Below are positions 1,228 to 32,064 of a stretch of 33,303 bases of DNA, one piece after another. Under the pieces are notes generated by a model. It ran no database searches. It saw only the letters and a program-made list of their open reading frames with translations, and was not told the origin of the DNA. A program made the position numbers and the translations under genes. Origin of the DNA: an uncultured Oscillospiraceae bacterium. GTDB taxonomy: Bacteria > Bacillota > Clostridia > Oscillospirales > Oscillospiraceae. Numbering within the stretch: the stretch's first letter is position 1; every line of letters starts with the position of its first letter. The DNA is taken from NCBI GenBank assembly GCA_947629975.1, contig CANRFU010000015.1, forward strand, positions 1 to 33,303. The letters are read 5' to 3'.

Positions 1228-1261
1228 GCGCCCGCCCATCCCCGCGAACCCCAAGGCAAAC

Positions 1262-1292: not shown

Positions 1293-1325
1293 CGCGGATA
1301 CTTTTGAGAGAGGTGACTTCTGGTA

Positions 1326-4113: not shown

Positions 4114-4140
4114 AACGGCTGAACTAAGGAGGAAACCACC

Positions 4141-4995: not shown

Positions 4996-5007
4996 GGAGG
5001 GCCTGCC

Positions 5008-6676: not shown

Positions 6677-6715
6677 GGAAACGCCCGACCATACGGGCGA
6701 GATCGAGGTGCGGAC

Positions 6716-11473: not shown

Positions 11474-11502
11474 TTGCGTTTCCCCGGCGTCAATAATACA
11501 AT
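11474..11502 (+). promoter_or_regulatory. Promoter of the two-component operon
   Basis: TTGCGT (11474-11479) and TACAAT (11497-11502) are 17 bp apart, upstream of the regulator ATG at 11531. A small palindrome, ATACAA-TAT-TTGTAT (11496-11510), covers the -10 and could be an operator. The intergenic stretch from 11356 to 11473 is A-rich and otherwise shows nothing I can name. Confidence 0.72.
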
Positions 11503-11530
11503 ATTTGTATCAGAGAGCTTGAGGGAGGGA

Positions 11531-12247
11531 ATGCCTGTGACACGCGTCGCTTTGGTAGAGGACGATCCCGTCTGCCGCGGGCAGTTGAAAGAATATCTGG
11601 ACCAGTATTCCAGGGAGACCGGCCATGAGTTCTCCATCCGGGTCTTTGAGGACGGGGAGGACATCGTCAGCGGCTACCGGCCCGAGTTCGACGTGATCCT
11701 CATGGACATCCAGATGAAATATTTGGACGGTATGACCGCCGCCGAGGAGATCCGCAGGATCGACGCCGGGGTCGTGATCCTGTTCATCACCAGCCTGGCC
11801 TCCTACGCCATCCGGGGCTACGCGGTGGACGCCCTGGACTACATCCTGAAACCGGTGACCTATTTCGCCTTCTCCCAGAGCCTCCGCCGGGCGCTGGACC
11901 GGCTGGAGCGCCGCCGCCGACGCTATGTGGTGGTGAGCCACAGAAACGGCGCCCGCAGGGTGGACTGCTCCCGCATCTACTACATCGAGATCGACGGCCG
12001 CAACCTGATCTACCACACGGAGGACGGCGACCTGGCCGCCGCCGGCAGTATGCGGGATGTGGAGGAGAGCCTGGAGGGCGGGCCCTTCTTCCGGTGCAAC
12101 AAGGGCTATCTGGTGAACCTGGAGCATGTGGACGGCCTGGACGGGGAGGACGCCCTTGTCCACGGCGTCCGGGTCCAGGTGAGCCGCTCCAAGAAAAAAG
12201 CCTTTCTGGACGCCCTGAACCGCTGTTTCAACGAGGTCGGCCAATGA
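11531..12247 (+). CDS. LytTR-family response regulator (AgrA/LytR-like)
   Basis: A 238-residue regulator. The receiver domain (about 4-120) has the acidic pocket E10/D11/D12, phospho-acceptor D59 in VILMDIQMKYLDG, and K107 in DYILKPV. A LytTR DNA-binding domain (about 135-238) follows, with RRYVVVSHRNGARRVDCSRI, a YYIEIDGRNLIYH stretch and FFRCNKGYLVNLEHV. LytTR proteins bind paired direct repeats near promoters. ATG 11531 is chosen because GAGGGAGGGA precedes it and the receiver begins there; a TTG further up the frame is the -35 element itself. The stop overlaps the kinase start (ATGA), so the pair is co-translated. Targets may include the GH78 promoter downstream. Confidence 0.93.
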   Translation: MPVTRVALVEDDPVCRGQLKEYLDQYSRETGHEFSIRVFEDGEDIVSGYRPEFDVILMDIQMKYLDGMTAAEEIRRIDAGVVILFITSLASYAIRGYAVDALDYILKPVTYFAFSQSLRRALDRLERRRRRYVVVSHRNGARRVDCSRIYYIEIDGRNLIYHTEDGDLAAAGSMRDVEESLEGGPFFRCNKGYLVNLEHVDGLDGEDALVHGVRVQVSRSKKKAFLDALNRCFNEVGQ

Positions 12248-13686: not shown

Positions 13687-13715
13687 TTCACAAGGGAAGG
13701 CCGGCTTGTTATAAT
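13687..13715 (+). promoter_or_regulatory. Promoter of the GH78 glycan locus
   Basis: TTCACA (13687-13692) and TATAAT (13710-13715) are separated by 17 bp, with an added TGn before the -10 (TGTTATAAT). The -35 differs from consensus at two bases, which suits a promoter helped by an activator. Confidence 0.82.
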
Positions 13716-13772
13716 GTGCCCAAGTTAAAATCCCAAGAGAGGGAGAAGCCAGAAGCGAAAGGGGAGGACGTT

Positions 13773-16334
13773 ATGCTGAAGATCACACGATTCACCGTGG
13801 AAAATCTGACGACAGGCTGCGTCACCGATGTGGAGCGGCCCCGGTTCTCTTTCACCCTGGACAGCGACCGGCCCGGGGCCGCCCTGAGGAAGGCCGTGCT
13901 CCGCATGGGCAGCTGGCAGACGGAGACCGCCGAACAGATCGCCGTGCCTTACGGCGGCCCGGCGTTGAAGCCCTTCACGTCTTATACCGTGGAGCTGACC
14001 GCCGAGGACGACGCGGGGGAGACGGCGAAGTCCTCCGTCACCTTCGAGACCGGGCGGCTGGACACCCCCTGGGCGGGCCAGTGGATCAGCGACCCCCGCT
14101 ATCAGTTCACCGAGAAGAAGGTCAGCCCCGCGCCCATGACCTTCCGCCGGCGGGTCAGGACGGAGAAGCCGGTGGCCTCCGCGAAGATCTGCGCCACCGC
14201 CATGGGTATCTACGAGCTGGACCTCAACGGCAAAAAGGTGGGGGACCGGTACTTTGCCCCCGGCTTCACCTCCTATCAGACCAACCTCCAGTACCAGACC
14301 TACGACGTGACCGGCCTCATCACCGGGGACGACGTGATCGACGTGGTGGTGGCCGGCGGCTGGGCGGTGGGCTCCTTCGTGTTCACGAGGGCAAACCGCA
14401 TCACCGCCGACCGGCAGGCCCTGCTGCTGGAGCTGCGCCTCGCCTACGCCGACGGGACGGAGGAGGTCATCGGCACCGACGAAAGCTGGTTCGTCACCGA
14501 GGGCGGCCCCTATAAGATGGCCGATCTCTACGACGGCGAGACCTACGACGCCACAGAGGCCGGCTATGACAAGGCCCTCTGGGGCGCGGCCGCCCCCGAA
14601 AAGCTGAAGATCAGCCCGAAGATCATGGCCGACTACGGCGCCCCCGTCAGAGCTCACGAGCGGCTGGCACCGGTTTCCTGCACGGAGCGCTCCGACGGCG
14701 CTCTGATCTACGACTTCGGCCAGAACTTCGCCGGCGTGGTGGAGCTGCGCCTGAACGGGAAGCGGGGCCAGACCGTGACGGTCCGCCACGCGGAGATCCT
14801 GAACCCGGACGGCACCCTGAACACCCAGTTCCTCCGCACCGCCAAAGCCACGGCCACATACACCTGCGTGGACGGGGAGCAGACCTGGTCCCCCCGGCTC
14901 ACCTACATGGGCTTCCGCTACATCAGCGTGGAGGGTGCCGCCAAAGAGGACGTGACCGTCACCGGGGTGGCCCTCTACTCCGATGTGGAGCGCATCGGCG
15001 ATTTCGCCTGCTCCAACGAGATGCTCAACCAGCTCCAGAGCAATATCGTCTGGGGGGCCAAGTCCAACTTCGTGGACATCCCCACCGACTGCCCCCAGCG
15101 GGACGAGCGCATGGGCTGGACCGGCGACATCGCCGTGTTCTCCCCCACCGCCTGCTTCAACTTCGACATGAGCCGTTTCCTGGACAAGTGGCTGCTGGAC
15201 GTGAAGGCGGAGCAGTTCCCCGGCGGCGGCATCCCCAACACGGTGCCCCGGCAGAGCTACGGCTTCCCCGCCACCATGCCGGACATGGCGGTGGACTGGT
15301 GGGACGACGCCTGTATCCTGGTGCCCTGGGCGGAGTACCGGGCGAGAGGGGATGTGGAGATCCTCCGCCGGAACTACCCCGTGATGAAGAAGTACGTGAA
15401 GGCGTGTACCTTCTGGGCGGGGCTGCTGAGCTTCGGCAAAAATAAGTACATCTGGCACACCCCGGCGGTGTTCCACTTCGGGGACTGGGTGGCCCCCGAC
15501 GTGCCCAAGATGGGCCAGTGGCAGGCCCGGTCCAAGTGGACGGCCACCGCCAGCCTGAAGAACACCAGCGGCCTCCTGGCCCGCATCGCGGAGATCCTGG
15601 GAGAGACCGCCGACGCGGCCCGCTACAGGGATCTGAGAGAAAAGGTGGCCGACGCCTACTGCTCGGTGCTCACCGACGGGAACGGCAAGATCCTGGGCGA
15701 CGAGTTCCAGACCGCCTATGTACTGCCCCTGTATCTGGATATGTTCCCCAACGCGGGGGTCAAGGGCAAAGCGGCGGACAATCTGGCGGCGCTGGTGGAG
15801 AAGAACGGCTGCCGCATCGGCACCGGCTTCCCCGGCACCCCCTTCATCCTGTTCGCCCTGGCGGACAACGGCCACGCCGACACGGCGTTCAAGATGCTGC
15901 TGAACACCGAATGTCCCTCCTGGCTGTACGAGGTCAAAATGGGGGCCACCACCATCTGGGAGCGGTGGGACGGCCTGGACGAGAACGGCGTGTGCCCCAT
16001 CGGGGACGACGGCACCGATATGATGATCTCCTACAACCACTACGCCAGCGGCGCGGTGGGCGACTTCCTCTACCGCCGGGTGGCGGGCATCGAGGCCGTG
16101 GAGCCGGGCTATAAGACCTTTGCCGTGAAGCCCCTGGTGGGCGGCGGCATCACCTGGGCCAGGGCCCATGTGGACACCCCCTACGGCCGGGTCTCCTCCG
16201 ACTGGAAGGCGGAGGGGAAAAACTTCACCGTCACCGTCCGGGTGCCTGTGGGGACCGTCTGCCGGCTCACCCTGCCCGACGGCTCCGGCCAGGAGCTGAC
16301 CAGCGGCGTCCACACGGCCGGCTGCGCCCTCTGA
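13773..16334 (+). CDS. GH78 alpha-L-rhamnosidase
   Basis: An 853-residue enzyme expected to release terminal alpha-L-rhamnose. Beta-sandwich domains come first (VENLTTGCVTDVERPRFSF; about 120-270 is the Bac_rhamnosid N region with GIYELDLNGKKVGD). An (alpha/alpha)6 barrel then carries the DCPQRDERMGWTGD cluster (D439, D444, E445, D452) and TIWERWDG with E730, where GH78 catalytic acids lie. A small C-terminal beta domain ends it. No signal peptide is seen, so it should be cytoplasmic and act on imported oligosaccharides. ATG 13773 is chosen because AGGGGAGG precedes it and the upstream in-frame GTG at 13716 touches the -10 box, so it cannot be in the transcript. First gene of the locus. Confidence 0.95.
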   Translation: MLKITRFTVENLTTGCVTDVERPRFSFTLDSDRPGAALRKAVLRMGSWQTETAEQIAVPYGGPALKPFTSYTVELTAEDDAGETAKSSVTFETGRLDTPWAGQWISDPRYQFTEKKVSPAPMTFRRRVRTEKPVASAKICATAMGIYELDLNGKKVGDRYFAPGFTSYQTNLQYQTYDVTGLITGDDVIDVVVAGGWAVGSFVFTRANRITADRQALLLELRLAYADGTEEVIGTDESWFVTEGGPYKMADLYDGETYDATEAGYDKALWGAAAPEKLKISPKIMADYGAPVRAHERLAPVSCTERSDGALIYDFGQNFAGVVELRLNGKRGQTVTVRHAEILNPDGTLNTQFLRTAKATATYTCVDGEQTWSPRLTYMGFRYISVEGAAKEDVTVTGVALYSDVERIGDFACSNEMLNQLQSNIVWGAKSNFVDIPTDCPQRDERMGWTGDIAVFSPTACFNFDMSRFLDKWLLDVKAEQFPGGGIPNTVPRQSYGFPATMPDMAVDWWDDACILVPWAEYRARGDVEILRRNYPVMKKYVKACTFWAGLLSFGKNKYIWHTPAVFHFGDWVAPDVPKMGQWQARSKWTATASLKNTSGLLARIAEILGETADAARYRDLREKVADAYCSVLTDGNGKILGDEFQTAYVLPLYLDMFPNAGVKGKAADNLAALVEKNGCRIGTGFPGTPFILFALADNGHADTAFKMLLNTECPSWLYEVKMGATTIWERWDGLDENGVCPIGDDGTDMMISYNHYASGAVGDFLYRRVAGIEAVEPGYKTFAVKPLVGGGITWARAHVDTPYGRVSSDWKAEGKNFTVTVRVPVGTVCRLTLPDGSGQELTSGVHTAGCAL

Positions 16335-16394
16335 TTTCGTTGGTTTTCTCGGAGAGGTTCGAGGATCAAAATAACTGAGAAAGGATGAATCCCC

Positions 16395-17858
16395 ATGAGC
16401 AAAGAAAAGCAAGGGATCTGGAGCAACCCCCTGTTCAGCTCCAAGATCAAGTCTCAGGACGTGCGGATGCCGGAAATGCTGATCGGCTACCTGATCGGCC
16501 CCTTCGGCGCGCTGCTGTCCTCCGGCATCTTCACCAGCTTCCTGAACAAGTATTTCACCGACGTACTGCATCTGGACACCGCGTTCCTGTCCGGCCTGCA
16601 GCTGGTGTCCACGGTCTTCATCGTGGCCGCCAACCTGATCGTGGGCCAGCTCATCGAGCGCACCAAGACCCTGGCCGGCAAGGCCCGCCCCTGGGTGCTG
16701 CTGTCCGCCCTGACCCTGTCGGTGGCCAGCCTGCTGATGTTCATCGTCCCCTTTGAGGGTATGGCCAAGATGGTGTGGGTGGCCATCGCCTACAACCTGT
16801 ACTACTCCATCGCGTACCCCATCTACAATACCGCCAACTCCACCCTGGTCCCCGTCTCCACCCGGGACAGCGGACAGCGCGCCTCTCTGGCCTCTTTCAC
16901 CAACATCGCCGGCCTGGGCGTCATGGGCGTGGGCTCCATGATCTTCCCCATCCTGGTGGCCAACGTGCTGGGCAACAGCCAGGCCATGTGGACCCTGGTG
17001 ATGGTGGGCGTGGCCATCTTCACCGCCCTGACCATCTTCCTCCAGTTCCAGTTCACCCGTGAGCGCGTCACCGAGGAGAGCATGGATTCGGCCGCCGACA
17101 CCCAGCAGCCCGGCGCCCCCTCCATCGGCGATCAGCTGAAGGCGGTCACCAGCGAGAAGTGGTGGTGGATCGTCATCCTGTTCTACCTGTTCTTCCAGTG
17201 CTCCGGCGCCATCAAAAACGGCTCCATGAGCTACTTCTGCCAGTGGGTGGTGGACTCCACCGGCATCGCCGGCGGCTGGGGCACCGTTCAGACCATCCTG
17301 GCCGTGCTGGGCGCCATCCCCATGGCCGTGGCCGCCGTGTTCGTGGTGCCTCTGGCCAATAAGTTCGGCAAGCGGATGGTGGTCTTCGCCGGCATGGTCG
17401 TGGGCGTCATCGGCGGCGTCATCGCCGGCCTCGGCAACGGCGCCATCGTCCCGACGGCCATCGGCGTGGCCCTGAAGTGCCTGGGCTCCTCTCCCGCCGC
17501 TTACCTGATCCTGGCCATGCTGGCCGACGTCATCGACCACATCGAGTACAAGCACAACATCCGCACCGACGGCCTGACCATGTCCATCTACAGCTCCGTC
17601 ATGGTGGCAGCCACCCCGATCATGAACGCCGTCTTCATGGCCCTGCTGAACGGCGCGGGCTATGTGGCTCCCCCCGAGGACGCCGCCGCCGCTGCCGGGA
17701 TGGTCCAGAACGTGAATACCCAGGTGGCCATCGGCATCAGCTACATCTGGATCGAGACCGTGGCCTATGCCGTCTGCGCGGTGCTGATGCTCCTGTGGAC
17801 GGTGGAGAAGAACCTGAAGGACGAGCAGGCCGCCATCGCCGCCCGGAAGGGCAAGTAA
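16395..17858 (+). CDS. GPH family sugar:cation symporter
   Basis: A 487-residue transporter with about 12 membrane segments, a second GPH symporter but clearly diverged from that at 1326-2945. Family features are LIVGQLIERTKTLAGKARPWVLL (about 82-104) and MLADVIDHIEYKHNIRTDG (about 375-393). The cytoplasmic central loop has DSAADTQQPGAPS. It lies 60 bases after the GH78 gene and just before a membrane-tethered GH3 gene, so it probably imports the rhamnose-capped oligosaccharides that the signal-less GH78 cuts. The substrate is inferred. Ribosome site AAAGGATG is moderate. Confidence 0.9.
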   Translation: MSKEKQGIWSNPLFSSKIKSQDVRMPEMLIGYLIGPFGALLSSGIFTSFLNKYFTDVLHLDTAFLSGLQLVSTVFIVAANLIVGQLIERTKTLAGKARPWVLLSALTLSVASLLMFIVPFEGMAKMVWVAIAYNLYYSIAYPIYNTANSTLVPVSTRDSGQRASLASFTNIAGLGVMGVGSMIFPILVANVLGNSQAMWTLVMVGVAIFTALTIFLQFQFTRERVTEESMDSAADTQQPGAPSIGDQLKAVTSEKWWWIVILFYLFFQCSGAIKNGSMSYFCQWVVDSTGIAGGWGTVQTILAVLGAIPMAVAAVFVVPLANKFGKRMVVFAGMVVGVIGGVIAGLGNGAIVPTAIGVALKCLGSSPAAYLILAMLADVIDHIEYKHNIRTDGLTMSIYSSVMVAATPIMNAVFMALLNGAGYVAPPEDAAAAAGMVQNVNTQVAIGISYIWIETVAYAVCAVLMLLWTVEKNLKDEQAAIAARKGK

Positions 17859-17935
17859 CGTGAAGCAAGCCCCCCGGGGCCTGTGGATAGAGGAACAGCA
17901 ACAAAGGAAAGGAATCAAAACAAGGAGGGTAAAAC

Positions 17936-20900
17936 ATGAGCAAAAGCACGAAAAGCGGTCGGGGCGCACAGCCTGTCTGGCGCGGCCTGACCACCGTCTG
18001 CGCCGTGATCCTGGCGGCTGCCCTGAGCGCCCAGCCTCTGGTGAACACCTTCAGGACCGACATCGACAAATTCCTGGGTACCCAGAGCACCCAGATCGTC
18101 ACCGACGACGCGGGCGACGCCGAGAACCTGTACACCTACACATCCGACTACTCCAGCACCAAGGAGCTGGTCACCGCCATCGCCGATCTGGGCGAGCGGG
18201 TGAGCGAGGAGGGCACCGTCCTGCTGAAGAACAACGGCGCTCTGCCCCTCACCGCCGACGAGACCAAGAAGGTCTCCCTGCTGGGCTTTTCCAGCTACTA
18301 TCCCGTCCGGGGCGGCATCATGGGTTCCAGCCTGACCGAGAACGTGGGCACCGACGCCGACACCGTTGATCTGGTGCAGGCGCTCACCGCCAGGGGCTTC
18401 GGCCTCAACCCCGACCTCCAGCCCCTGTATCAGTCCCTGGAAGCGGTGTTCACCACCGAGGTCCAGAGCTGGGGCGGCACCATCACCTATAAGACCATCA
18501 CCGCGCCCAGCGTGGGCGGCGTGTTCTCCAGCAAGGAGCCCTCTCAGGCCCAGATGGACGGCGCCAACGCCAACTGGAAGAGCGGCCTCAGCGACTACAA
18601 CGTGATGGTGGTCACCCTGGCCCGGGCCGGCAGCGAGAACGGCACCTATATGCCCGGCACCGCCGGCGTGGATCCCTCCCAGAACCTGAACCAGCGGGAT
18701 CCCCTGGGCCTCAGCGATGACGAGCGGGATCTGATCCAGGCCGCCGTGGACGCCAAGGGGAGCAACGGCAAGGTCATCGTCCTCATCAACAGCTCCAGCG
18801 CCATGGAGCTCCAGGAGGTCCAGGACAACGAGGGCGTGGACGCCATCCTCCAGATCGGCCTGCCCGGCGGCTACGGCTTCTACGGCGTGGCCGACATCCT
18901 CTCCGGCGCCGCCAACCCCTCCGGCCACCTGTCCGACACCTACGCCGTCACCATCGCCGACTCCCCGGCGGCGCAGAACTTCGGCAACTTCGAGTGGACC
19001 AACCCCGATCCCTCCATCACCGTCAACTCCGAGATCGTCCAGGCCGAGGGCATCTACATCGGCTATAAGTACTATGAGACCCGCTACGCGGACGTGGTGC
19101 TGGGCCAGGGCAACGCCGGGAACTGGAACTACGCCGACGAGGTCACCTATCCCTTCGGCTACGGCCTCAGCTACACCACCTTTGAGCAGAAGCTGAACAG
19201 CGTCCAGGTGGACCTGACCGCCAAGACCGTCACCGCCAACGTGACCGTGAAGAACACCGGCTCCGTGGCCGGCAAGGACGCCATCCAACTGTACGTCTCC
19301 CTGCCCTACATCCAGGGCGGCGTGGAGAAGGCCGCCATCCAGCTGCTTGATTTCGCCAAGACCGACGAGCTGCAGCCCGGCGAGAGCAAGGACTACACCC
19401 TGGTGGCTGACGCCCAGAATATGACCAGCTGGGACAGCGACGCCAACAACGCCGTGGGCACCAAGGGCAACTTCATCCTGGATCCCGGCACCTACTACTT
19501 CACCGTGGGCGCCGACGCCCACGAGGCCGTCAATAACGTCCTGGCCGCCCAGGGCGCCACCGTGGACGGCGGCAGCGCCGACAACACCCAGACCTGGGAG
19601 CTGGCTCAGCGCGACGAGACCACCTTTGCCCGCTCCAAGGCCGGCGTGGCCGTGGAGAACCAGCTGGCCGACATGGACGTGAACTATTGGCTGCCCGGCA
19701 CCGCCTCCTATCTGTCCCGGTCCGACTGGGAGGGCACCTGGCCCAAGACCTATTCTGGTCTCACCGCCACCGCCGATATGCTGGCCATCATGGACAACGA
19801 CATCTATGAGCTGGGCTCCGGCACCGGCGACCCCGTCACCTTCGGCGCGGCCAACGGCCTGACCCTGGCCGACCTGAAGGGCGTCACCGATCTGGAGGAT
19901 CCCCGCTGGTCCCAGCTGATGGACCAGATCACCCTGGAGGAGTGCATGATCCGCACCGGCTTCGGCGGCACTTCCACCAAGGCCATCGAGTCCATCATGT
20001 CCCCCGAGGCCATTCAGAACGATGGCCCCAACGGCATCTACTCCTATCCTCTCGGCCAGTACGCCAACAAGACCGACGACAAGGATCCCTGCAAGGTGGA
20101 CGCCAACGACCCCAACCTGGGCTTCACCTTCGGCACCATGCCCAACGCCACCGTCATCGGCCAGACCTTCAGCAAGGAGCTGGCCCGCGCCTTCGGCGAG
20201 ACGGCCGGCAACTACTCCCTGTGGGCCAACCTGACCATCTACTGGGGCTGCGGCGTCAACCTGCACCGGGTGCCCTACAACTCCCGCAACCATGAGTATT
20301 ACGCCGAGGACTCCGTCCTGTCCGCCGGCCTGGGCAACGAGTTCGTGCAGGGCGGCCTGAAGTACGGCTGCCTCATCGCCCCCAAGCACCTGGCCTTCAA
20401 CGACACCGAGATCAACCGCTCCGGCGTGGCCACCTTCATGACCGAGCAGCAGGCCCGCGAGAATGAGCTGCGCTGCTTCCAGTCCATCGTGGAGAACGGC
20501 GCCTTGGCCCTGATGACCGCCTACAACCGGGTCGGCATCACCCAGGACAACGCCCATACCGGCCTGATGATGAACATCCTGCGCAAGGAGTGGGGCTTCA
20601 AGGGCCTGATCTCCGAGGACTTCATCATGGACGCCAACTACACCGTGCTGAAAGAGGCCGTTATGAACGGCGTCACCATGAGCTGCAACACGGGCGACAA
20701 CAGCATCGCCGCCGTCAGCGAGAAGTACAGCTACTGGACCGTGGAGAACGTCGGCAAGGATCCCGCCATGCAGGCCGCTCTGAAGCAGGCCATGACCTGG
20801 CAGAACTACGCCCTGGCCAACTCCAACGCTCTGGACGGCCTGTCCTCCAGCTCTCACCTGGTCAGCGTCCGCACCTGGTACGACAACGCCATCACCGGTC

Positions 20901-20977
20901 TCCAGATCGGCTCCGGCGTGCTCACCGTCCTGTGCGCCGTGGCCTATGTGATGTCCGGCAAGCGCAAGGAAAACTGA
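17936..20977 (+). CDS. GH3 glycoside hydrolase with reversed domain order, anchored at both ends
   Basis: A 1013-residue protein. A signal-anchor helix (about 17-36) follows a basic N-terminus. The GH3 C-terminal domain comes first (EGTVLLKNNGALPL from 92), then a fibronectin-III-like domain (PFGYGLSYTTFE, about 405-530). The catalytic barrel is last (about 635-960): GPNGIYSYPLG, HEYYAEDSV, KHLAFND at K817 and nucleophile D895 in GFKGLISEDF. A C-terminal helix (about 986-1005) and SGKRKEN tail end it. This reversed order is known in some ruminal GH3 beta-glucosidases. Two membrane helices with basic inner ends would hold the enzyme flat on the outer face. AAGGAGGG precedes the ATG. Specificity (glucoside, xyloside or arabinoside) is not readable. 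Confidence 0.93.
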   Translation: MSKSTKSGRGAQPVWRGLTTVCAVILAAALSAQPLVNTFRTDIDKFLGTQSTQIVTDDAGDAENLYTYTSDYSSTKELVTAIADLGERVSEEGTVLLKNNGALPLTADETKKVSLLGFSSYYPVRGGIMGSSLTENVGTDADTVDLVQALTARGFGLNPDLQPLYQSLEAVFTTEVQSWGGTITYKTITAPSVGGVFSSKEPSQAQMDGANANWKSGLSDYNVMVVTLARAGSENGTYMPGTAGVDPSQNLNQRDPLGLSDDERDLIQAAVDAKGSNGKVIVLINSSSAMELQEVQDNEGVDAILQIGLPGGYGFYGVADILSGAANPSGHLSDTYAVTIADSPAAQNFGNFEWTNPDPSITVNSEIVQAEGIYIGYKYYETRYADVVLGQGNAGNWNYADEVTYPFGYGLSYTTFEQKLNSVQVDLTAKTVTANVTVKNTGSVAGKDAIQLYVSLPYIQGGVEKAAIQLLDFAKTDELQPGESKDYTLVADAQNMTSWDSDANNAVGTKGNFILDPGTYYFTVGADAHEAVNNVLAAQGATVDGGSADNTQTWELAQRDETTFARSKAGVAVENQLADMDVNYWLPGTASYLSRSDWEGTWPKTYSGLTATADMLAIMDNDIYELGSGTGDPVTFGAANGLTLADLKGVTDLEDPRWSQLMDQITLEECMIRTGFGGTSTKAIESIMSPEAIQNDGPNGIYSYPLGQYANKTDDKDPCKVDANDPNLGFTFGTMPNATVIGQTFSKELARAFGETAGNYSLWANLTIYWGCGVNLHRVPYNSRNHEYYAEDSVLSAGLGNEFVQGGLKYGCLIAPKHLAFNDTEINRSGVATFMTEQQARENELRCFQSIVENGALALMTAYNRVGITQDNAHTGLMMNILRKEWGFKGLISEDFIMDANYTVLKEAVMNGVTMSCNTGDNSIAAVSEKYSYWTVENVGKDPAMQAALKQAMTWQNYALANSNALDGLSSSSHLVSVRTWYDNAITGLQIGSGVLTVLCAVAYVMSGKRKEN

Positions 20978-20995
20978 GATAGGAGGGAATCAGAG

Positions 20996-21424
20996 ATGAA
21001 AAAATCCGCCGGCTTCTTCATGACCATCCTGTCCGCCATCGCGGCTGTGGTGGGCGTGGTCGCCTACATCATGAACACCCGCACGAACTACTTCATCAAC
21101 CTGGGCGTGAATACCGTCGTGGTCGTCTGCGCCGTGGCCGCCATCGTCATCCAGGTGGTGTACCTGATCGCCAGCGGCAAGGGCCACAACCTCTTTGTCG
21201 ATCTTCTGGCCGTGCTGCCCCCCGTGCTGCTGATCGTGGCCGCCATCACCCTGGTGTCCACCCGCATCAACGGCATCGCCGCCATCATGACCTTTGAGAA
21301 CAACGCTCAGAACATGGCCGATCTGACCAGCGCCATCGTCGGCATCGCCGGCTGCGTGGTGGCCGCCCTCATCGGCGTGATCGCCTCCTTCTTTGACGCC
21401 GCCAAGGCCAAAGAGGCGAAATAA
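20996..21424 (+). CDS. Small four-helix membrane protein, function unknown
   Basis: A 142-residue hydrophobic protein. Four membrane segments are visible, at about 5-25, 34-57, 68-87 and 108-130. A polar outer or inner loop, MTFENNAQNMADL, lies between helices three and four, and a short DAAKAKEAK tail ends it. I do not recognise a named family. It starts 18 bases after the GH3 stop with AGGAGGGA and ends just before a terminator, so it is the last gene transcribed with GH3. A partner role for the tethered GH3 enzyme or the symporter, such as assembly or stability, is possible but unproven. Confidence 0.8.
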   Translation: MKKSAGFFMTILSAIAAVVGVVAYIMNTRTNYFINLGVNTVVVVCAVAAIVIQVVYLIASGKGHNLFVDLLAVLPPVLLIVAAITLVSTRINGIAAIMTFENNAQNMADLTSAIVGIAGCVVAALIGVIASFFDAAKAKEAK

Positions 21425-21443
21425 CCCCGGATTACCCGCCGAC

Positions 21444-21488
21444 GCATCCTGCCCTCCCCCGCACGGGGGAGGGCGGCGATGCCTTTTT
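21444..21488 (+). terminator. Terminator after the small membrane protein
   Basis: GCATC (21444-21448) pairs with GATGC (21478-21482), and GCCCTCCCCC (21451-21460) with GGGGGAGGGC (21465-21474), followed by TTTTT at 21484-21488. The stem core resembles the C-rich hairpins at 1262 and 31136. Confidence 0.85.
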
Positions 21489-21514
21489 CACAGACGTGAA
21501 AGGAGGGGCGAGAC

Positions 21515-23299
21515 GTGAAACGGATCCGCTTTTTCGCCGTGTTGTCTCTCCTTTTGTGCCTGTTGGGATGTACCGCCGTACAAAACGGCCCCCGGCCCGC
21601 CCTTTGCCGGGTGGTGCTGGAGGAGGGAGACGGCTTCTCCGCCGACTCCTACGTGGCCGACGCCGCCGTGGGGGAGGACGTGCGGTTCACCCTCACTGAG
21701 GACAACGGCTGCACCGTCTCCGCCGCCGATTACCCGGGCGCGGAGCTGATCCGCGAAGCAGGGGGGACGCTCACCCTCCGCCTGCCCGAAATCAACTACT
21801 CCGACACGGTGCGCCTCACCGTGGAGCGCAGCGCCGTGACCCTGGCCTACCACGCCAACGGGGGGACCCGTCTGGACGGGGGCGATCCCGCCAGGCCCGT
21901 GGAGGTCCCCGTGACCCCCTCCCATCTGCGGCTGAACACCGCCGCCGGCGGGCTGTTTGCCCGGGACGGCTATACCCTCACCGGCTGGAACACCGCACCT
22001 GACGGCTCGGGGCTGGCGGTGGGGCTGGGCAGCCGCGTTTCCCCGGAGGACGGGCTGGTGCTCTACGCCCAGTGGAGCCCCTGGACCGACGCCGCTCTCT
22101 TTGAGACGGAGGTCCTGGGGGATGGGGTGGCCGTCACCGCCTACGCCGGCCGCGAGGAGGTCCTCACCGTCCCCGCCGAGATCGGCGGCAGGCCGGTCCG
22201 GTCCCTGGCCGCCGGGGCTTTCGCGGGGGCGGACGCCCGCACGGTGATCCTGCCCGACACCCTCTGGTCGGTGGACAATGGCGCGTTCACCGGCGCGGCC
22301 CTGTCCGAACTGTACCTGTCCGACAACCTCCGCACGGTCAGCGACTACTCCTTTGAGGGGTGCGAGACCCTTCAGACCCTCCATATCAACGCCGCCGCCT
22401 CCCCGGTGTACAGCGGCACTTACTACGCTGCCTTTGCCGACAAGTTCGACCGGCTCCTGAGCCTCTGGGGCAGCCGCAAGATCATCCTGTTCTCCGGTTC
22501 CTCCGCCCGTTTCGGATACGACAGCGCCGCCATCGACGCGGCCTTCCCGGGCTATGATGTGGTGAACATGGGCGTGTTCGCCTACACCAACGCCCTGCCC
22601 CAGATGGAGCTGATCCTGACCTGCGTGGGGGAGGGAGACGTCCTGGTCCACTCCCCGGAGTTCGACGCCGCCCAGAGGCAGTTCTGCACCTCGGCCAATC
22701 TGGACGCCCCCTTCTTCAACATGATGGAGGCGGACTACGACATGCTGGCCCTGCTGGATCTGCGGCGGTACGGCCAGGTGTTCACCGCCTTCTCCGCCTA
22801 CCTGGACAGCCGGGAGGGGATGAGGGCCCGGAACTGGGCCCTGTCCCCCGCTGATTATGACGAGGACGGAAATCCGGTGGATACCCCCAGTTATAACGAG
22901 TACGGGGATTACATTTTGTATCGGCCCAACGCCGCCGACGAGGCCCCGGTCTACGGTCTGCCGGTGGACTACACCGCCCGCTCCTTCCCCAGGGCGGCGT
23001 TCATCGATCCGCTGAATGCCGAGTACCGGCGCTTTCTGGACGCCGGGGCGGAGGTCTTCTTCACCTACGCCCCCCGGAACCGGCTGGCCCTGTCCGAGGC
23101 CAGCACCCCCGAGGCCCGCTCCGCCTTGGACGCGTATTTTCGGGAGGCCCTGTGCGTCCCCGTGCTGGAGGACATAGAGGACTCCCTGGTCAGCGGCGTG
23201 TACCTCAGCGGCACCGACAACCACCTGTCCACCGAGGGGGTCGCCCACCGCACCGAGCGGTTCATCGCGGCGCTGTCCGTCGCCCTGCCCCCGGAATGA
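21515..23299 (+). CDS. Lipoprotein with InlB-like, LRR and SGNH-like hydrolase domains
   Basis: A 594-residue surface lipoprotein with a GTG start behind AAAGGAGG. The signal peptide ends in LLLCLLGC (C19). An InlB/Listeria-Bacteroides-type repeat follows (about 108-190: YHANGG, GYTLTGWNT, YAQWSP). BspA-like leucine-rich repeats come next (about 220-300: FAGADARTVILPDTLWSV, LYLSDNLRTVSDYSFEGC). The C-terminal half resembles an SGNH/GDSL esterase: KIILFSGSSARFGYDS with S329 or S330 as candidate nucleophile, VVNMGVF, and TDNHLSTEG with D568 and H570. It could deacylate a glycan or be a carbohydrate-binding or adhesion factor. The SGNH call is by motif only and the active site should be treated as tentative. 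Confidence 0.78.
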   Translation: MKRIRFFAVLSLLLCLLGCTAVQNGPRPALCRVVLEEGDGFSADSYVADAAVGEDVRFTLTEDNGCTVSAADYPGAELIREAGGTLTLRLPEINYSDTVRLTVERSAVTLAYHANGGTRLDGGDPARPVEVPVTPSHLRLNTAAGGLFARDGYTLTGWNTAPDGSGLAVGLGSRVSPEDGLVLYAQWSPWTDAALFETEVLGDGVAVTAYAGREEVLTVPAEIGGRPVRSLAAGAFAGADARTVILPDTLWSVDNGAFTGAALSELYLSDNLRTVSDYSFEGCETLQTLHINAAASPVYSGTYYAAFADKFDRLLSLWGSRKIILFSGSSARFGYDSAAIDAAFPGYDVVNMGVFAYTNALPQMELILTCVGEGDVLVHSPEFDAAQRQFCTSANLDAPFFNMMEADYDMLALLDLRRYGQVFTAFSAYLDSREGMRARNWALSPADYDEDGNPVDTPSYNEYGDYILYRPNAADEAPVYGLPVDYTARSFPRAAFIDPLNAEYRRFLDAGAEVFFTYAPRNRLALSEASTPEARSALDAYFREALCVPVLEDIEDSLVSGVYLSGTDNHLSTEGVAHRTERFIAALSVALPPE

Positions 23300-23348: not shown

Positions 23349-24818
23349 ATGAAGACCAAGCAGGCATTCAATCCCTACATGCCCAGCTGGGAGTATGTCC
23401 CCGACGCCGAGCCCCACGTGGTGGACGGCCGGGTGTACGTCTACGGCTCCCATGATCTGTTCAACGGCCTCAATTTCTGCCTGGGGGACTATGTGTGCTG
23501 GTCCGCCCCGCTGGACGATCTGGGGAACTGGACCTATCACGGCTGCATCTACAAGCGGGAGCAGGACCCCGCCGCCCCCAAGATCCGGCTCACCAACGGC
23601 CTGGCCGCCCCCGATATGGTCCAGGGGCCCGACGGCCGGTTCTACCTCTACTACTTCATGGGCGGCACCAAGATGATCTCCGTGGCCGTGTGCGACGAGC
23701 CCGCCGGCAAGTATGAGTTCTACGGCTATGTGAAGTACAAGGACGGCACCCCCATCGGCAAGCGGGGCGAGCCCTTCCAGTTCGACCCCGGCTGTCTGAA
23801 GGACGACGACGGCCGCCTGTACATGTACACCGGCTTCGCCTTCGGCGGCAACCCCATCCTGCTGGACGGCTCCAGGCCCACCTCGGAAGGGCCCATGTGG
23901 TTCGAACTGGACACCAGCGACATGCTCACCGTCCTCTCCGGGGACGAGCTGAACTACCTGGACGTCCTCACCGGGGAGAAGGCCAAGGGCACCCCCTATG
24001 AGGAGCAGCCCTTCGGCGAGGCCAGCTCCATGCGGAAGTTCAACGGCAAGTATTACTTCATTTACTCCTCCCTGAACAGCCACAACCTGTGCTATGCCGT
24101 CAGCGACAGGCCCACCGGCGGCTTCACCTACGGCGGCGTGCTGGTCAGCTGCGGCGACATCGGCCTGCCCGGCGTGCCCGACGCGAAGCACGCCCGCATG
24201 GACACCGGCAACACCCACGGCTCCCTCATCGAGTTGAACGGGAAGTATTACGTCTTCTACCACAGGCACTCCAACCGGAAGCAGTCCTCCCGTCAGGGCT
24301 GTGCCGACGAGATCCAGTTCGTGGACGGCAAGTTCCAGCAGGCGGAGATGACCTCCTGCGGCCTCAATGGCGGCCCGCTGGCCGGGAAGGGGCACTATCC
24401 CGCCTACATCGCCTGCAACGTCTATGGCAGGAACGGCACCCGGTTCCTGTCCATGCTGAAGTATCCCCTGGGCATGTGCCCCTTCCTGACCCAGAAGGGC
24501 GGCGACCGGGACGAGGGGCCCAGCGACCAGTATGTGTCCAACTTCTGCACCGACTGCACCGTGGGCTTCAAGTATTTCGACCTGCGGGAGACGAAGGAGA
24601 TCACCGTGAACCTCCAGGGCTACGGGGACGGCTGCGCGGTGACGGTGCGCACCCAGGAGCACGGCGATGTGATCTGCCGCATCCCCGTGTCCACCTGCAA
24701 GCAGCAGAAGGGCTTCACGGGCGCTCTGCCCGCCGGCCTGGGCGGGAAGGAGGCCCTGTACTTCTCCGTGGAGGGCAAGGGCGGCACCTTCGACTTTGTG
24801 TCCTTTGATCTGAAGTGA
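23349..24818 (+). CDS. GH43 family glycoside hydrolase with CBM6-like tail
   Basis: A 489-residue enzyme of the beta-xylosidase/alpha-L-arabinofuranosidase family, with a five-bladed propeller fold. NPYMPSWEYVPDAEPHV gives the base D19. FDPGCLKDDDGRLYMYTG gives D146, the likely pKa modulator. FGEASSMRKFNGKYYFIYSS gives E224, the likely acid. A jelly-roll CBM6-like region follows (about 395-489). No signal peptide is present, so it is probably cytoplasmic and works on imported arabinose- or xylose-bearing oligomers. AGAGGAGGAAACG precedes the ATG, 49 bases after the lipoprotein stop. Last gene of the locus before a terminator. Confidence 0.93.
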   Translation: MKTKQAFNPYMPSWEYVPDAEPHVVDGRVYVYGSHDLFNGLNFCLGDYVCWSAPLDDLGNWTYHGCIYKREQDPAAPKIRLTNGLAAPDMVQGPDGRFYLYYFMGGTKMISVAVCDEPAGKYEFYGYVKYKDGTPIGKRGEPFQFDPGCLKDDDGRLYMYTGFAFGGNPILLDGSRPTSEGPMWFELDTSDMLTVLSGDELNYLDVLTGEKAKGTPYEEQPFGEASSMRKFNGKYYFIYSSLNSHNLCYAVSDRPTGGFTYGGVLVSCGDIGLPGVPDAKHARMDTGNTHGSLIELNGKYYVFYHRHSNRKQSSRQGCADEIQFVDGKFQQAEMTSCGLNGGPLAGKGHYPAYIACNVYGRNGTRFLSMLKYPLGMCPFLTQKGGDRDEGPSDQYVSNFCTDCTVGFKYFDLRETKEITVNLQGYGDGCAVTVRTQEHGDVICRIPVSTCKQQKGFTGALPAGLGGKEALYFSVEGKGGTFDFVSFDLK

Positions 24819-27710: not shown

Positions 27711-27815
27711 GTGAAATACTATCTCGCCATCGATATCGGCACGTCCAGCGGCCGGCCGGCAGATCGGAGGCGCGGTGGCCTACCGGGACAGTTGTACTGC
27801 CGGGATGGACGCCAT
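27711..27815 (+). pseudogene. Remnant of a rhamnulokinase 5' end with an internal deletion
   Basis: After a good ribosome site, GTG opens VKYYLAIDIGTSSGR, a FGGY kinase N-terminus. Bases 27726-27756 match 28273-28303 of the intact kinase gene at 29 of 31 positions. From 27758 the match jumps to 28526 and continues without gaps to 27813 (46 of 56), encoding QIGGAVAYRDSCTAGMDA in another frame. About 220 bases are missing, the frame shifts at the junction, and all catalytic parts downstream are absent. What can be translated from the GTG is a 55-residue peptide ending at 27878. The divergence shows a related kinase gene, not a recent copy. Confidence 0.88.
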
Positions 27816-27930
27816 CATACTCCTTGGCAACATGGAAAAACGTATCTCTTTCCATCGCTATTGTATATTTCGTGTTGAGCGGCTCTCTACTTACTTTAAT
27901 GCGCTACTACAAAATAATAGGAGGCACAAA

Positions 27931-28245
27931 ATGGTCAGGAAAGGTTTCAAGATGTTTCTGAATCCGGGCATGGCGGCGGAGTATGAAAAACGCCATAATG
28001 AGCTGTGGCCCGCGATGCAGGAGATGATTCATCAGTACGGCGGGCGGAACTATTCCATCTTTCTGGACGAGGAGACGAATGTCCTCTATGGATACATTGA
28101 GGTAGAGGACGAGTTGAAATGGTCCCAGTCCGCCGATACGGAGATCAATCGGAAGTGGTGGGATTTTATGGCGGATATTATGGAGACCAATTCGGATAAC
28201 AGCCCGGTAAGCATCGACCTTCGTCCGGTGTTTCACCTGGAATAG
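27931..28245 (+). CDS. rhaM: L-rhamnose mutarotase
   Basis: A 104-residue protein that interconverts alpha- and beta-L-rhamnose (EC 5.1.3.32), exactly the family length. YEKRHNELWPAMQEM carries the catalytic H22, and NYSIFLDEETNVLYGYIEVE, RKWWDFMADIM and NSDNSPVSIDLRPVFHLE match RhaM closely. ATG 27931 follows AGGAGG; the frame runs upstream into the kinase remnant by chance. Base use differs from the neighbours: 60-base samples count 30 (28021-28080) and 26 (28141-28200) G+C against 38 in a sample of the isomerase gene, with many A/T-ending codons. That suggests separate acquisition. It lies 9 bases before rhaB. Confidence 0.96.
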   Translation: MVRKGFKMFLNPGMAAEYEKRHNELWPAMQEMIHQYGGRNYSIFLDEETNVLYGYIEVEDELKWSQSADTEINRKWWDFMADIMETNSDNSPVSIDLRPVFHLE

Positions 28246-28254
28246 GAGGGCCAT

Positions 28255-29706
28255 ATGGGACGCTGCATTTTAGCCATCGACATCGGCGCGTCCAGCGGCC
28301 GGCACATCCTGGGCCATGTGGAGGACGGGAAGATCGTGCTGGAGGAGGTCCACCGGTTCGACAACAAGCAGGTCCATGTGAACGGCCACGACTGCTGGGA
28401 CATGGACAACCTGTGGGCTGGCATCGTGGACGGGCTGAAAGCCTGCAAAGCCCTGGGCAAGATCCCCAACACCGTGGGCATTGACACCTGGGCGGTGGAC
28501 TACGTGCTGCTGGACGGGGAAGGCAGGCAGATCGGCAACGCCGTGGCCTACCGGGACGACCGCACCGCCGGGATGGACGCCCTGGTGGACGCCATCGTGC
28601 CCCGGTCGGAGCTGTACGCCAAGACCGGCATCCAGTACCAGACCTTCAACACCATCTACCAGCTCATGGCGCTGAAACAGGAGCACCCGGAGCAGTTAGA
28701 GGCGGCGGAGTCCCTGCTGATGATCCCGGACTACTTCAATTATAAGCTCACCGGAGTGAAAAAGCAGGAGTACACCAATGCCACCTCCACCAGCCTGGTG
28801 AACGCAGCGGCCAAGACCTGGGACATGGACCTGATCCGGCGGCTGGGTCTGCCGGAAAAGCTGTTCGGGGCGCTGTCCATACCGGGAACGGTGGTGGGGG
28901 ACCTGACCCCGGAGATGCAGGCGGAGGTGGGCTTCAACACCACCGTCATCCTCCCCGCCACCCACGACACCGGCTCCGCCTTCCTGGCCGTCCCCGCCCG
29001 GGACGACAGGGCGGTGTTCCTCTCCAGCGGCACATGGTCCCTCCTGGGGGTGGAGAACGAGGTCCCCATCACCACCGAGGAGAGCCGGGAGGAGAACTTC
29101 ACCAACGAGGGCGGGGCCTGGTACCGATACCGGTATCTCAAGAACATCATGGGCCTGTGGATGATCCAGTCCATCCGCCGGGAACTGAACGGCGTGGCCT
29201 ATGTGGAGGGAAAGACCAGCCAATACGCCTCCGGCCGCACCTATTCCTTCCCCGACCTGATCGCCGAGGCCAAGACCGCCGCTGATTTCCCCTCCATGGT
29301 GGACGCCAACGACGAGTGCTTCCTGGCCCCGGACAGTATGATCGACGCCATCAAGGCGTTCTGTGAAAAATCCGGCCAGCCGGTGCCTCAGACGGTGGGG
29401 GAGATCATGCAGACGGTCTATTCCTCCCTGGCCATGGCCTATGAGAACGGGATCGCCGCCTTGGAGGACATGACCGGGAAGCATTACACCAGTCTGAACA
29501 TCGTGGGCGGCGGCTGCCAGGATATGTACCTGAACCAGATGACCGCCAACGCCACCGGCCTGCCCGTGTTCGCCGGCCCGGTGGAGGGCACCGCCATTGG
29601 CAACCTCATCGTCCAGATGATCGCCGGGGGCGAGTTCACATCGTTACAACAGGCGCGTGACGCCATAAAAGACAGCTTTGACATCAAGGAGGTAACGCCA
29701 TGTTAG
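28255..29706 (+). CDS. rhaB: Rhamnulokinase
   Basis: A 483-residue FGGY kinase that phosphorylates L-rhamnulose at O-1. ILAIDIGASSGRHILG (5-20) is the ATP-phosphate loop of RhaB-type kinases. GIDTWAVDYVLLD (75-87), AYRDDRTAGM and LPATHDTGSAFLAVP, with catalytic D238, are also present. SSGTWSLLGVE and NIVGGGCQDMYLNQMTANATG mark the C-terminal lobe. AGGAGGG precedes the ATG. The last 7 bases overlap the isomerase start. A broken relative lies about 540 bases upstream. Confidence 0.96.
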   Translation: MGRCILAIDIGASSGRHILGHVEDGKIVLEEVHRFDNKQVHVNGHDCWDMDNLWAGIVDGLKACKALGKIPNTVGIDTWAVDYVLLDGEGRQIGNAVAYRDDRTAGMDALVDAIVPRSELYAKTGIQYQTFNTIYQLMALKQEHPEQLEAAESLLMIPDYFNYKLTGVKKQEYTNATSTSLVNAAAKTWDMDLIRRLGLPEKLFGALSIPGTVVGDLTPEMQAEVGFNTTVILPATHDTGSAFLAVPARDDRAVFLSSGTWSLLGVENEVPITTEESREENFTNEGGAWYRYRYLKNIMGLWMIQSIRRELNGVAYVEGKTSQYASGRTYSFPDLIAEAKTAADFPSMVDANDECFLAPDSMIDAIKAFCEKSGQPVPQTVGEIMQTVYSSLAMAYENGIAALEDMTGKHYTSLNIVGGGCQDMYLNQMTANATGLPVFAGPVEGTAIGNLIVQMIAGGEFTSLQQARDAIKDSFDIKEVTPC

Positions 29707-31121
29707 TGGAAACCAAAGCCCGTGTGGGCGTGTTCGCCATCGCCCTGGGGGCCTATCTGCCCCAGTTCCCCTCCCTGGTCCCCGAGTTCGAGGGCCAGTA
29801 CGCCGACTTCAAAAAGCGCATCCCCGACACGGTGGAGCTCATCGACGGCGGCATCGTCACCACCAAGGAGCTGGCCCAGGCCGCCGGCGACAAGTTCCGG
29901 GCTGCCGACGTGGACCTGGTCATCCTCCAGCTGCTGACCTACGCCACCTCCTACAACATGCTCCCCGCCGTCCGGGATCTGGACGTGCCCGTGGTGCTGG
30001 TGAACCTCCAGAAGAAGAAGGCCCCCGACTACGCCAACACCGACACCGCCACCTGGCTGGGCGAGCTGTACGCCTGCGGCGCGGTGGGCGAGATGGTGGC
30101 CGATCTGGAGCGGGCGGGCAAGCGCCACGCCGTCATCACCGGCGTGGTGGAGGGGGGCGACCCCCACGCCCAGGCGGAGATCGAGGACTGGTGCAAAGCC
30201 GCCCAGGTCCGCCGCCGCTTCCGCGACACCAACCTGGCCCAGATCGGCCGGCCCTACCCCGGCATGATGGACCTGTACATCGACGAGACCAACCTCTACC
30301 ACCGGATGTGGCTCTACACCAAGCAGTTCGACTGGGAGAAGATGTGGGCCATCGCCGACGACATCACCGACGAGGACGCCATCCGGGCCAAGGCCCAGGA
30401 CATCCTGGACACCTTCGATATCGAGGGTGGCGGCACCATCGAGAAGGTCTGGGACATGGCGAAATACGTCGTCGCTTTCGAGCGGTGGGTGAAGGAGGAG
30501 AAGCTGGGCTTCGTGGCCTCCCACTACGACGGGTTCGCCCAGGGGGTGGCCGGCAGGCTGGACTCCATGCTCATCCCCGCCTTCTCCATGCTCATCAAGC
30601 AGGGCACCGCCTGCGCCGTGGAGGGGGATATCAAGGTGGCCATGGCCATGAGCATTTTGAAAACCATCTCCGGCACCGGCCAGCTGTCCGAGATGTACTC
30701 CATCGACTTCGAAAAGGACATCTGCATCATCGGCCACAGCGGCTCCGGGGACGCGGACATCTCCCAGGCAAAAAAGCCCACCATGAAGATCGTCCCCGTG
30801 TTCCACGGCAAGACCGGCGGCGGCTACCTCACCCAGTTCTATCCCCCGGTGGGCCCCGTCACCTATCTGGGCATCACCCAGGACAGGGACGGTCACTTCA
30901 AGTTCGTGGTGGCCGAGGGGGTCAACGAGGAGGGCCCCATCTTCACCTTCGGGGACACCAATATGCGCACCCGCTTCACCTGCGGGGCCCGGGAATTCTG
31001 CGACCGCTGGAGCGAGGCCGGTCCCACCCACCACATGGCCGCCGCCGCGGGCCGCCACATCGACACCATTTTGAAAGTCGCCAAGATCTTCAACGTCCCC
31101 GCGGACATTATCACCCGCTGA
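29700..31121 (+). CDS. AraA/FucI-superfamily sugar isomerase, likely the L-rhamnose isomerase of this operon
   Basis: A 473-residue isomerase of the L-arabinose/L-fucose isomerase superfamily. RVGVFAIALGAYLPQFP and VPVVLVNLQ match the AraA-like N-terminal domains. Four residues align with the Mn2+ and catalytic set of E. coli AraA (E306, E333, H350, H450): E308 in CAVEGD, E331 in LSEMYSIDFEKD, H346 in IIGHSG and H445 in GPTHHM. It is not related to RhaA or RhaI. It sits where a rhamnose isomerase is needed, between rhaB and rhaD, and no other isomerase is in the operon. L-rhamnose to L-rhamnulose is therefore the inferred reaction; L-fucose or L-arabinose isomerisation remains possible. AAGGAGG and the ATGTTAG overlap couple it to rhaB. 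Confidence 0.85.
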   Translation: MLVETKARVGVFAIALGAYLPQFPSLVPEFEGQYADFKKRIPDTVELIDGGIVTTKELAQAAGDKFRAADVDLVILQLLTYATSYNMLPAVRDLDVPVVLVNLQKKKAPDYANTDTATWLGELYACGAVGEMVADLERAGKRHAVITGVVEGGDPHAQAEIEDWCKAAQVRRRFRDTNLAQIGRPYPGMMDLYIDETNLYHRMWLYTKQFDWEKMWAIADDITDEDAIRAKAQDILDTFDIEGGGTIEKVWDMAKYVVAFERWVKEEKLGFVASHYDGFAQGVAGRLDSMLIPAFSMLIKQGTACAVEGDIKVAMAMSILKTISGTGQLSEMYSIDFEKDICIIGHSGSGDADISQAKKPTMKIVPVFHGKTGGGYLTQFYPPVGPVTYLGITQDRDGHFKFVVAEGVNEEGPIFTFGDTNMRTRFTCGAREFCDRWSEAGPTHHMAAAAGRHIDTILKVAKIFNVPADIITR

Positions 31122-31135
31122 CCCGGTATCTATGC

Positions 31136-31159
31136 CTCCCCGCCCGTGGGGCGGGGGAG
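31136..31159 (+). repeat. C/G-rich intercistronic hairpin
   Basis: CTCCCCGCCC (31136-31145) pairs with GGGCGGGGGAG (31149-31159) with one bulged G and a tight loop. No T run follows. It resembles hairpins at 1262 and 21451 in sequence and probably affects mRNA stability or partial termination between the isomerase and aldolase genes. Confidence 0.5.
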
Positions 31160-31191
31160 ATCACATAAAACGATGAAAGGGAGTTTTCACC

Positions 31192-32019: not shown

Positions 32020-32064
32020 ACCCGGTGAAACTCACCACAAATTCATAAAAGGAGTGTATGTATC

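Follow-up and report, generated by a model that had tools for sequence, protein, structure and literature searches.

Permuted and membrane-anchored GH3 glycosidases have been described separately. The ruminal GH3 enzyme GlyA1 (PDB 5k6l) has a permuted topology that is linked to gut bacteria, chiefly Firmicutes, according to the accessible parts of PMC5104943. Butyrivibrio Bgl3A and Bgl3D are described, in the accessible parts of PMC5217386 and PMC5716241, as GH3 enzymes with a C-terminal transmembrane helix, and one of them is called possibly membrane-anchored. Gram-positive polysaccharide utilisation loci combine glycosidases with a regulator and a transporter, sometimes of the GPH type (PMC5320581, as far as accessible), and part of PMC11170127 provides background on GH3, GH78, and flavonoids. 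This study analyzed a 33,303-nt stretch from an uncultured Oscillospiraceae bacterium (contig CANRFU010000015.1, assembly GCA_947629975.1), hereafter called the window, which is the whole contig of an incomplete genome (1.86 Mb in 98 contigs). In the window, a permuted GH3 gene is followed directly by the gene of a 142-residue four-helix protein, here called SP. The initial annotation proposed that the GH3, SP, and a GPH symporter encoded before them form a dedicated membrane complex. The reading that we consider most likely, and favor with moderate confidence, is a lasting complex of GH3 and SP, that is, a membrane-tethered exo-glycosidase pair that feeds a rhamnoside importer and a cytosolic rhamnosidase.

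Pairing of a permuted GH3 with a four-helix membrane protein

Pfam domains of the window GH3 occurred in the order Glyco_hydro_3_C (residues 94-413), Fn3-like (450-527), and Glyco_hydro_3, the barrel (733-903), each above cutoff. This order of sandwich, Fn3-like domain, and barrel is the GlyA1-type permuted topology and bears out the reversed domain order first proposed from the DNA. GlyA1 was also the top PDB match of the enzyme (207.6 bits). Seven NCBIfam equivalog models matched the window GH3, all far under cutoff. On the basis of motifs, we take Glu234 to be the acid/base and Asp895 to be the nucleophile. Helices of both GH3 and SP were predicted from hydropathy alone. The best Kyte-Doolittle windows of the GH3 were residues 18-36 (score 1.92, in a hydrophobic stretch starting at about residue 14) and residues 985-1003 (score 1.79), the latter followed by the tail GKRKEN; thus, a helix was predicted at each end, with a basic C-terminal tail, as had been claimed. 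Among the permuted GH3 rows, the near-C-terminal helix was missed in L148, L152, and L130, and in L157 the C-terminal-side helix lay about 230 residues before the end. The GH3 matches of L130 and L132 are cut by a contig end.

SP exhibited four hydropathy peaks (Kyte-Doolittle scores 2.40, 2.94, 2.64, and 2.58). It had no Pfam match at E 0.001 and no NCBIfam match at E 0.01, and its best scores fell short of the curated cutoffs (Pfam, 15.6 versus 29.8 bits; NCBIfam, 11.9 versus 585). Weak family matches among 39 SP relatives were spread over unrelated families. The commonest, DUF7937 (9 of 39 relatives, best E 2.8e-5), was taken as hydrophobic similarity and rejected. Of the 26 Pfam families that matched the 39 members at E 0.1, the 25 listed do not include GtrA/DPMS (PF04138).

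We then asked how often SP adjoins a GH3 gene in other genomes. An SP-baited search of 300 same-family genomes identified SP in 12 genomes, with 14 matches including the window, and a GH3 gene or its remnant lay directly upstream in all 14. The remnants comprised a GH3 in two pieces (L018), one cut by a contig end (L022), one frameshifted (L026), and, in L027 (5300-6202), no more than the final codons of a GH3 tail; this contig, in which a regulator gene is joined to that tail, appears chimaeric. A scan of named genomes yielded 52 loci from 89 candidate stretches; because it used two short peptide patterns, it covers close relatives only. The carriers were mostly uncultured Oscillospiraceae, Lachnospiraceae, and other Clostridia, together with Gemmiger, Faecalibacterium, and Butyrivibrio, and the isolates with the pair include Gemmiger sp. 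An50 and Butyrivibrio proteoclasticus P18. GH3 was the next gene upstream of SP in 47 of the 48 loci with at least 300 nt of upstream DNA. The GH3 lay within 150 nt in 45 of them, and the count is completed by L064, in which GH3 pieces stop 16 nt before SP, and L078, in which the GH3 is 280 nt upstream. These results run opposite to a family found mostly away from GH3 genes. The pairing counts are not independent, because several genomes are near-identical and six contigs recur in both searches (L015=L059, L016=L072, L017=L058, L018=L064, L019=L085, and L020=L081). The intergenic distance was usually -3 to +34 nt; where the overlap is larger, an upstream alternative start is the probable cause.

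Beyond the family, an order-level profile search matched SP at E 0.001 in 12 of 394 genomes. L142-L145 (19-24 bits), which were in longer or unrelated proteins or had no match to a broader profile, were taken as chance and dropped, leaving 8 of 394, L136 among them. A phylum-wide profile search of 398 genomes at E 1e-5 matched only the SP of the window itself, and we therefore regard the family as rare and patchy.

The converse searches used GH3 as bait and covered 120 family, 345 order, and 391 class genomes in overlapping draws. Most matches were followed downstream; those of G104, G114, G001, G046, G080, G110, and G061 (weaker) were left out. Of the 50 permuted GH3 genes whose downstream DNA could be read, 21 were directly followed by a small gene encoding three to five helices, mostly of 130-160 residues. 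The other 29 had none, and two of these are partial genes (L115:1-1302 and window 1-1227).

The difference between these groups followed the GH3 phylogeny. In a tree of 73 permuted GH3s, all 46 with SP formed one clade (Shimodaira-Hasegawa-like approximate likelihood ratio test, SH-aLRT, 100), and none of the 27 others had SP. Within the sampled tree, no row of the clade lacked SP and no row outside carried it, and the window row fell inside the clade. SP presence required one change on this tree compared with a mean of 22 for shuffled labels, and an earlier tree of 71 rows (53 with and 18 without SP) likewise required one. The root of the 73-row tree was not inferred, near-identical rows were thinned, and many of the 46 came from SP-baited sets. 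The 71-row tree excluded GH3 open reading frames (ORFs) shorter than 850 aa as well as 12 loci that overlap or are near-duplicates (L048, L052, L053, L054, L062, L063, L066, L080, L083, L094, L120, and L134); the 73-row tree further excluded 11 near-identical partner rows and the canonical GH3 L151_1320. L078 was assigned to the partner set by hand because its small gene sits 280 nt downstream. In a tandem of three GH3 genes and a small gene at L110, only the last GH3 fell in the partner clade, the first two grouping with the non-partner rows. The same locus (L110:849-14812) has four permuted GH3 genes arrayed with two small membrane-protein genes.

The partner clade is also marked by a motif, W-R-G-L, located where the first GH3 helix ends on the cytosolic side. 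Its residues had frequencies of.74 (W),.85 (R),.91 (G), and.83 (L) in the 46 partner rows, whereas the same positions in the 27 other rows gave W.30, K.30, I.33, and L.30. R and G occurred together in 38 of the 46 partner rows versus 1 of the 27 others, and W981, just before the second GH3 helix, was present at.87 versus.22.

Some GH3s without SP have other neighbors. L131:2120-2716 and L125:5907-6536 encode GtrA-like four-helix proteins (PF04138, 24.0 and 27.1 bits; cutoff 26.1). At both loci, the GtrA-like protein and a helix-less canonical GH3 adjoin GH3s with two N-terminal helices, and there is no SP.

Possible roles of SP at the membrane

The reading of a lasting complex builds on computed features, namely the domain order, the hydrophobic helices, the gene pairing, its restriction to one clade, the conservation pattern, and a strong terminator after SP; to these we add, by inference, physical contact, topology, substrate, operon start, and hand-over to the symporter. 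In such a complex, the permuted GH3 would be exported, and its two terminal helices would keep it on the outer face of the cytoplasmic membrane. SP would be a dedicated membrane subunit whose four helices pack with the two of the GH3, probably touching the first of them at its W-R-G-L end. Both of the conserved loops that SP is predicted to turn outward would hold or orient the GH3 ectodomain near the membrane. The enzyme would trim terminal sugars off rhamnose-containing glycosides, the co-transcribed symporter would take in the product, the cytosolic GH78 (and GH43) would complete the breakdown, and downstream rhamnose genes would consume the rhamnose. Neither the rhamnosidase nor the GH43 enzyme has a signal sequence by eye, which makes trimming outside by the GH3 and final cleavage inside a reasonable arrangement.

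Conservation and charge of SP were examined in an alignment of 39 close relatives, with loop and helix boundaries placed by hand. The results revealed that the predicted outward loops were the most conserved parts, with mean column entropies of 1.00 and 1.19, whereas the helices had 1.5-2.0 and the inner parts 1.7-2.3. Lysine and arginine per residue amounted to.17-.29 in the inner parts and.05-.07 in the outer loops. The conserved charged residues were D69, R90, E101, and D109. In L023 (9451-10515) and L026 (6322-8523), SP is extended by a fifth helix and an extra domain, with repeats in L026; judging from the topology, this domain would lie outside. The extended SPs of L026 and L023 gave weak Pfam matches to DUF3048_C and a lipocalin-like family, both below cutoff.

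Several observations weigh against a lasting complex. Four of the 46 partner rows (L110 twice, L114, and L117) have no significant SP profile match; their small genes were called by size, helix count, and position, and the one at L110:3730-4134 has three helices. Two-helix GH3s beyond the partner clade (27 rows) do without SP. L077 carries SP without a GH3, and L136 has only the second half of an SP gene, beside MBOAT and rhamnosidase genes and without a GH3. Ten of 39 loci lack an upstream symporter. Gene pairing can also be compatible with an assembly factor or with a shared function without stable binding, and the N-terminal GH3 helix could be a cleaved signal peptide.

This last point raises a sub-question of the complex rather than a separate account, and its odds do not add to those of the other readings: the GH3 may be anchored by its C-terminal helix alone, with SP binding to that helix. 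Inspection by eye shows small residues in the N-terminal hydrophobic stretch close to a possible cleavage site, and Bgl3A of B. proteoclasticus is described with a signal peptide and a C-terminal helix (accessible parts of PMC5217386). On the other side, the uncharged N-terminal stretch has a median of 23 residues (44 of the 46 partner rows measured), the conserved W-R-G-L lies at its cytosolic end, and some related GH3s have two N-terminal helices. In our judgment, the constraint on W-R-G-L is unusual for a mere signal peptide. We consider anchoring by the C-terminal helix alone possible but doubtful.

The complex may also be pictured more boldly, as an assembly in which SP founds a new family of membrane subunits dedicated to extracellular glycosidases. 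A six-helix base would then position the active site of the GH3 directly over the membrane and hand the product to the symporter, and some species would have added an outside domain. Such a Gram-positive hydrolase-importer assembly is a speculative proposal that we hold unlikely in this full form.

Next after the lasting complex among the separate accounts, we ranked an insertion or assembly factor, in which SP places both GH3 ends in the membrane and is absent from the finished enzyme. The position of SP immediately downstream, the limitation of the pairing to one GH3 clade, and the clade motif in the first GH3 helix would all suit such a factor. The most conserved SP parts are nevertheless predicted to face outward rather than to lie in the helices or inside, and the extra-domain fusions in L023 and L026 suggest a lasting surface part, so that we regard this account as quite unlikely.

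SP, whose four-helix size is like that of small transporters, could itself move the sugar released by GH3, as a transporter or channel beside the symporter, or export an aglycone. The four conserved charged residues and the retention of the GH3-SP pair in the 10 loci without an upstream symporter are consistent with this proposal. However, the window SP reaches no transporter family cutoff, the weak matches of its relatives are scattered, and, with the boundaries placed by hand, the conserved charges map to loops or helix termini; transport by SP thus appears improbable. That SP is a functionally unlinked passenger in a conserved operon would fit the conservation of the whole neighborhood (28 of 39 loci have the rhamnosidase and 29 of 39 the symporter) but is very improbable, because the GH3-SP link outlasts the other neighbors, tracks the GH3 tree, and is kept in distant clade members (L110, L114, L117, and L153-L156).

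Operon and genomic setting

The dedicated membrane complex was initially proposed to include the symporter and to be encoded in one transcription unit with it. The GH3-SP part of that proposal gained support from the pairing and from the single clade, whereas the symporter proved frequent but not obligate. Same-strand homologues upstream of SP loci included the rhamnosidase and the symporter at the frequencies given above, and both are less tightly kept than the GH3 pair. The symporter is a clear MFS_2 protein with a resemblance to GPH symporters, and it scored below the NCBIfam GPH cutoff (TIGR00792; 177.1 versus 231.35 bits). At the start of the window (1-2945), the C-terminal part of a second permuted GH3, with its C-terminal helix (1-1227), is followed directly by an MFS_2 transporter (1326-2945) without SP, and L149 has a similar arrangement. 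Because GH3s without SP can also adjoin MFS_2-type transporters, we regard the symporter as a common neighbor and not as a defining partner.

An intrinsic terminator was predicted directly after SP. The region 21425-21495 had a minimum free energy of -39.7 kcal/mol (z -6.1), and none of 200 shuffles was as stable; a simple scanner did not report this terminator. Terminators followed SP in 26 of 53 loci compared with 1 of 30 gaps between symporter and GH3, a rough comparison because the next gene already starts within several of the hairpins. A promoter-like site precedes the rhamnosidase gene and is weak, because one was found and 1.4 were expected in shuffles. Together, the promoter-like site and the terminator suggest that the unit probably comprises the rhamnosidase, symporter, GH3, and SP genes. 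The shared transcription unit is probably longer than first proposed; it seems to begin with the GH78 rhamnosidase gene and to end after SP. The GH78 ORF opens at 13716, and we chose the start at 13773. A minus-strand frame at 13725-17969 (1414 codons), antisense to the rhamnosidase and symporter genes, was attributed to high G+C content and rejected as a gene.

Coordinates of features in the window
Feature	Position	Strand	Basis
LytTR response regulator	11474..12247	+	Pfam Response_reg, LytTR
GHKL-type sensor kinase with N-terminal membrane helices	12094..13566	+	Pfam HATPase_c_5; five hydrophobic stretches
Promoter-like site (TTCACA-17-TATAAT, TG before -10) before the rhamnosidase gene	13687..13715	+	11/12 consensus matches
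GH78 alpha-L-rhamnosidase, no signal sequence by eye	13773..16334	+	Pfam Bac_rhamnosid domains
MFS_2 (GPH-like) symporter	16395..17858	+	Pfam MFS_2 (PF13347), 206.4 bits versus cutoff 27
Permuted GH3 (alpha/beta sandwich, Fn3, barrel) with hydrophobic helix at both ends	17936..20977	+	1013 aa
W-R-G-L motif, cytosolic end of GH3 N-terminal helix, characteristic of partner clade	17978..17989	+	Alignment
N-terminal hydrophobic helix of GH3, residues 17-39	17984..18052	+	Hydropathy
Glu234, candidate acid/base	18635..18637	+	100% conserved in both GH3 groups (46 + 27 rows)
Asp895, candidate nucleophile	20618..20620	+	100% conserved in both GH3 groups (46 + 27 rows)
C-terminal hydrophobic helix of GH3, then basic tail	20888..20950	+	Hydropathy
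SP, 142-aa four-helix partner, no named family	20996..21424	+	Hydropathy, profile searches, gene pairing
SP loop 1, predicted outward, residues 27-38	21074..21109	+	Mean column entropy 1.19
SP loop 3 (residues 89-111), outward by prediction; best-conserved region	21260..21328	+	Mean column entropy 1.00
Intrinsic terminator after SP: 39-nt hairpin (21444-21482), then CTTTTTC	21444..21488	+	Folding
Lipoprotein-like SGNH-type protein with LRR_5 repeat	21515..23299	+	Pfam LRR_5
GH43 enzyme, no signal sequence by eye	23349..24818	+	Pfam Glyco_hydro_43

Downstream of the terminator, the product of 21515..23299 is presumably an SGNH-type protein and a lipoprotein, labels that we took from motifs; 29 of 48 loci encode a homologue of it in the same orientation, no more than 500 nt downstream. 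Many relatives also have downstream genes for an MBOAT acyltransferase and for a second SGNH-like protein (e.g., L047:9478-12310). Of the 42 loci whose downstream DNA extends to 4 kb or more, 29 contain MBOAT, counting both strands; the window had no MBOAT match at E 0.01. The window also encodes a second GH78 (minus strand), an AraC regulator, a rhamnose mutarotase, an FGGY kinase, a class II aldolase, an iron-containing alcohol dehydrogenase (Fe-ADH), and an isomerase-like protein below Pfam cutoffs. The upstream genes encode a mannonate dehydratase, a sugar kinase resembling 2-keto-3-deoxygluconate (KDG) kinase (below cutoff), a glucuronate isomerase, and a 2-keto-3-deoxy-6-phosphogluconate (KDPG) aldolase. 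The cassette is thus flanked by genes of a hexuronate pathway (3025-8149) and of a rhamnose pathway (27775-33213). The GH78 rhamnosidase, the rhamnose pathway, and the SGNH and MBOAT genes had no place in the initial annotation. Judged by its predicted products, the setting is that of catabolism of rhamnose- and perhaps uronate-containing glycosides, and arabinogalactan-type glycans or flavonoid rhamnosides would both fit as substrates.

Relation to described systems

In the literature as far as it was accessible, with most subscription journals outside the scope of the search, we found no mention of a four-helix GH3 partner; both the permuted topology and the C-terminal helix of GH3s are already published. 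PMC11127362 and PMC10318527 proved unrelated as far as they were accessible. GlyA1 resembles the window GH3 in its order of alpha/beta sandwich, Fn3-like domain, and barrel and in its gut-bacterial origin. It differs in having 921 residues and an extra C-terminal segment of about 120 residues, and its report (PMC5104943) contains neither the word transmembrane nor the words signal peptide; the accessible parts describe no four-helix partner. Compared by description, Bgl3A and Bgl3D share the C-terminal helix, and B. proteoclasticus Bgl3A also has a signal peptide; the accessible accounts (PMC5217386 and PMC5716241) mention no partner protein or pairing. The Butyrivibrio loci L073 and L087 carry the GH3-SP pair. 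The accessible parts of PMC5320581 mention no membrane-tethered GH3 or tetraspan partner, whereas the Gram-positive polysaccharide utilisation loci described there resemble the window in combining glycosidases, a transporter, and a regulator in one locus.

Conservation of the GH3-SP pairing is strong enough to define a new protein family. Bacteroides can keep released sugars by means of an outer membrane, which Gram-positive gut bacteria do not have. If the lasting complex holds true, a GH3 that is strapped to the membrane at both termini and has a membrane partner of its own, together with an importer from the same operon, would be one answer to the loss of sugars that Bacteroides can prevent with an outer membrane.

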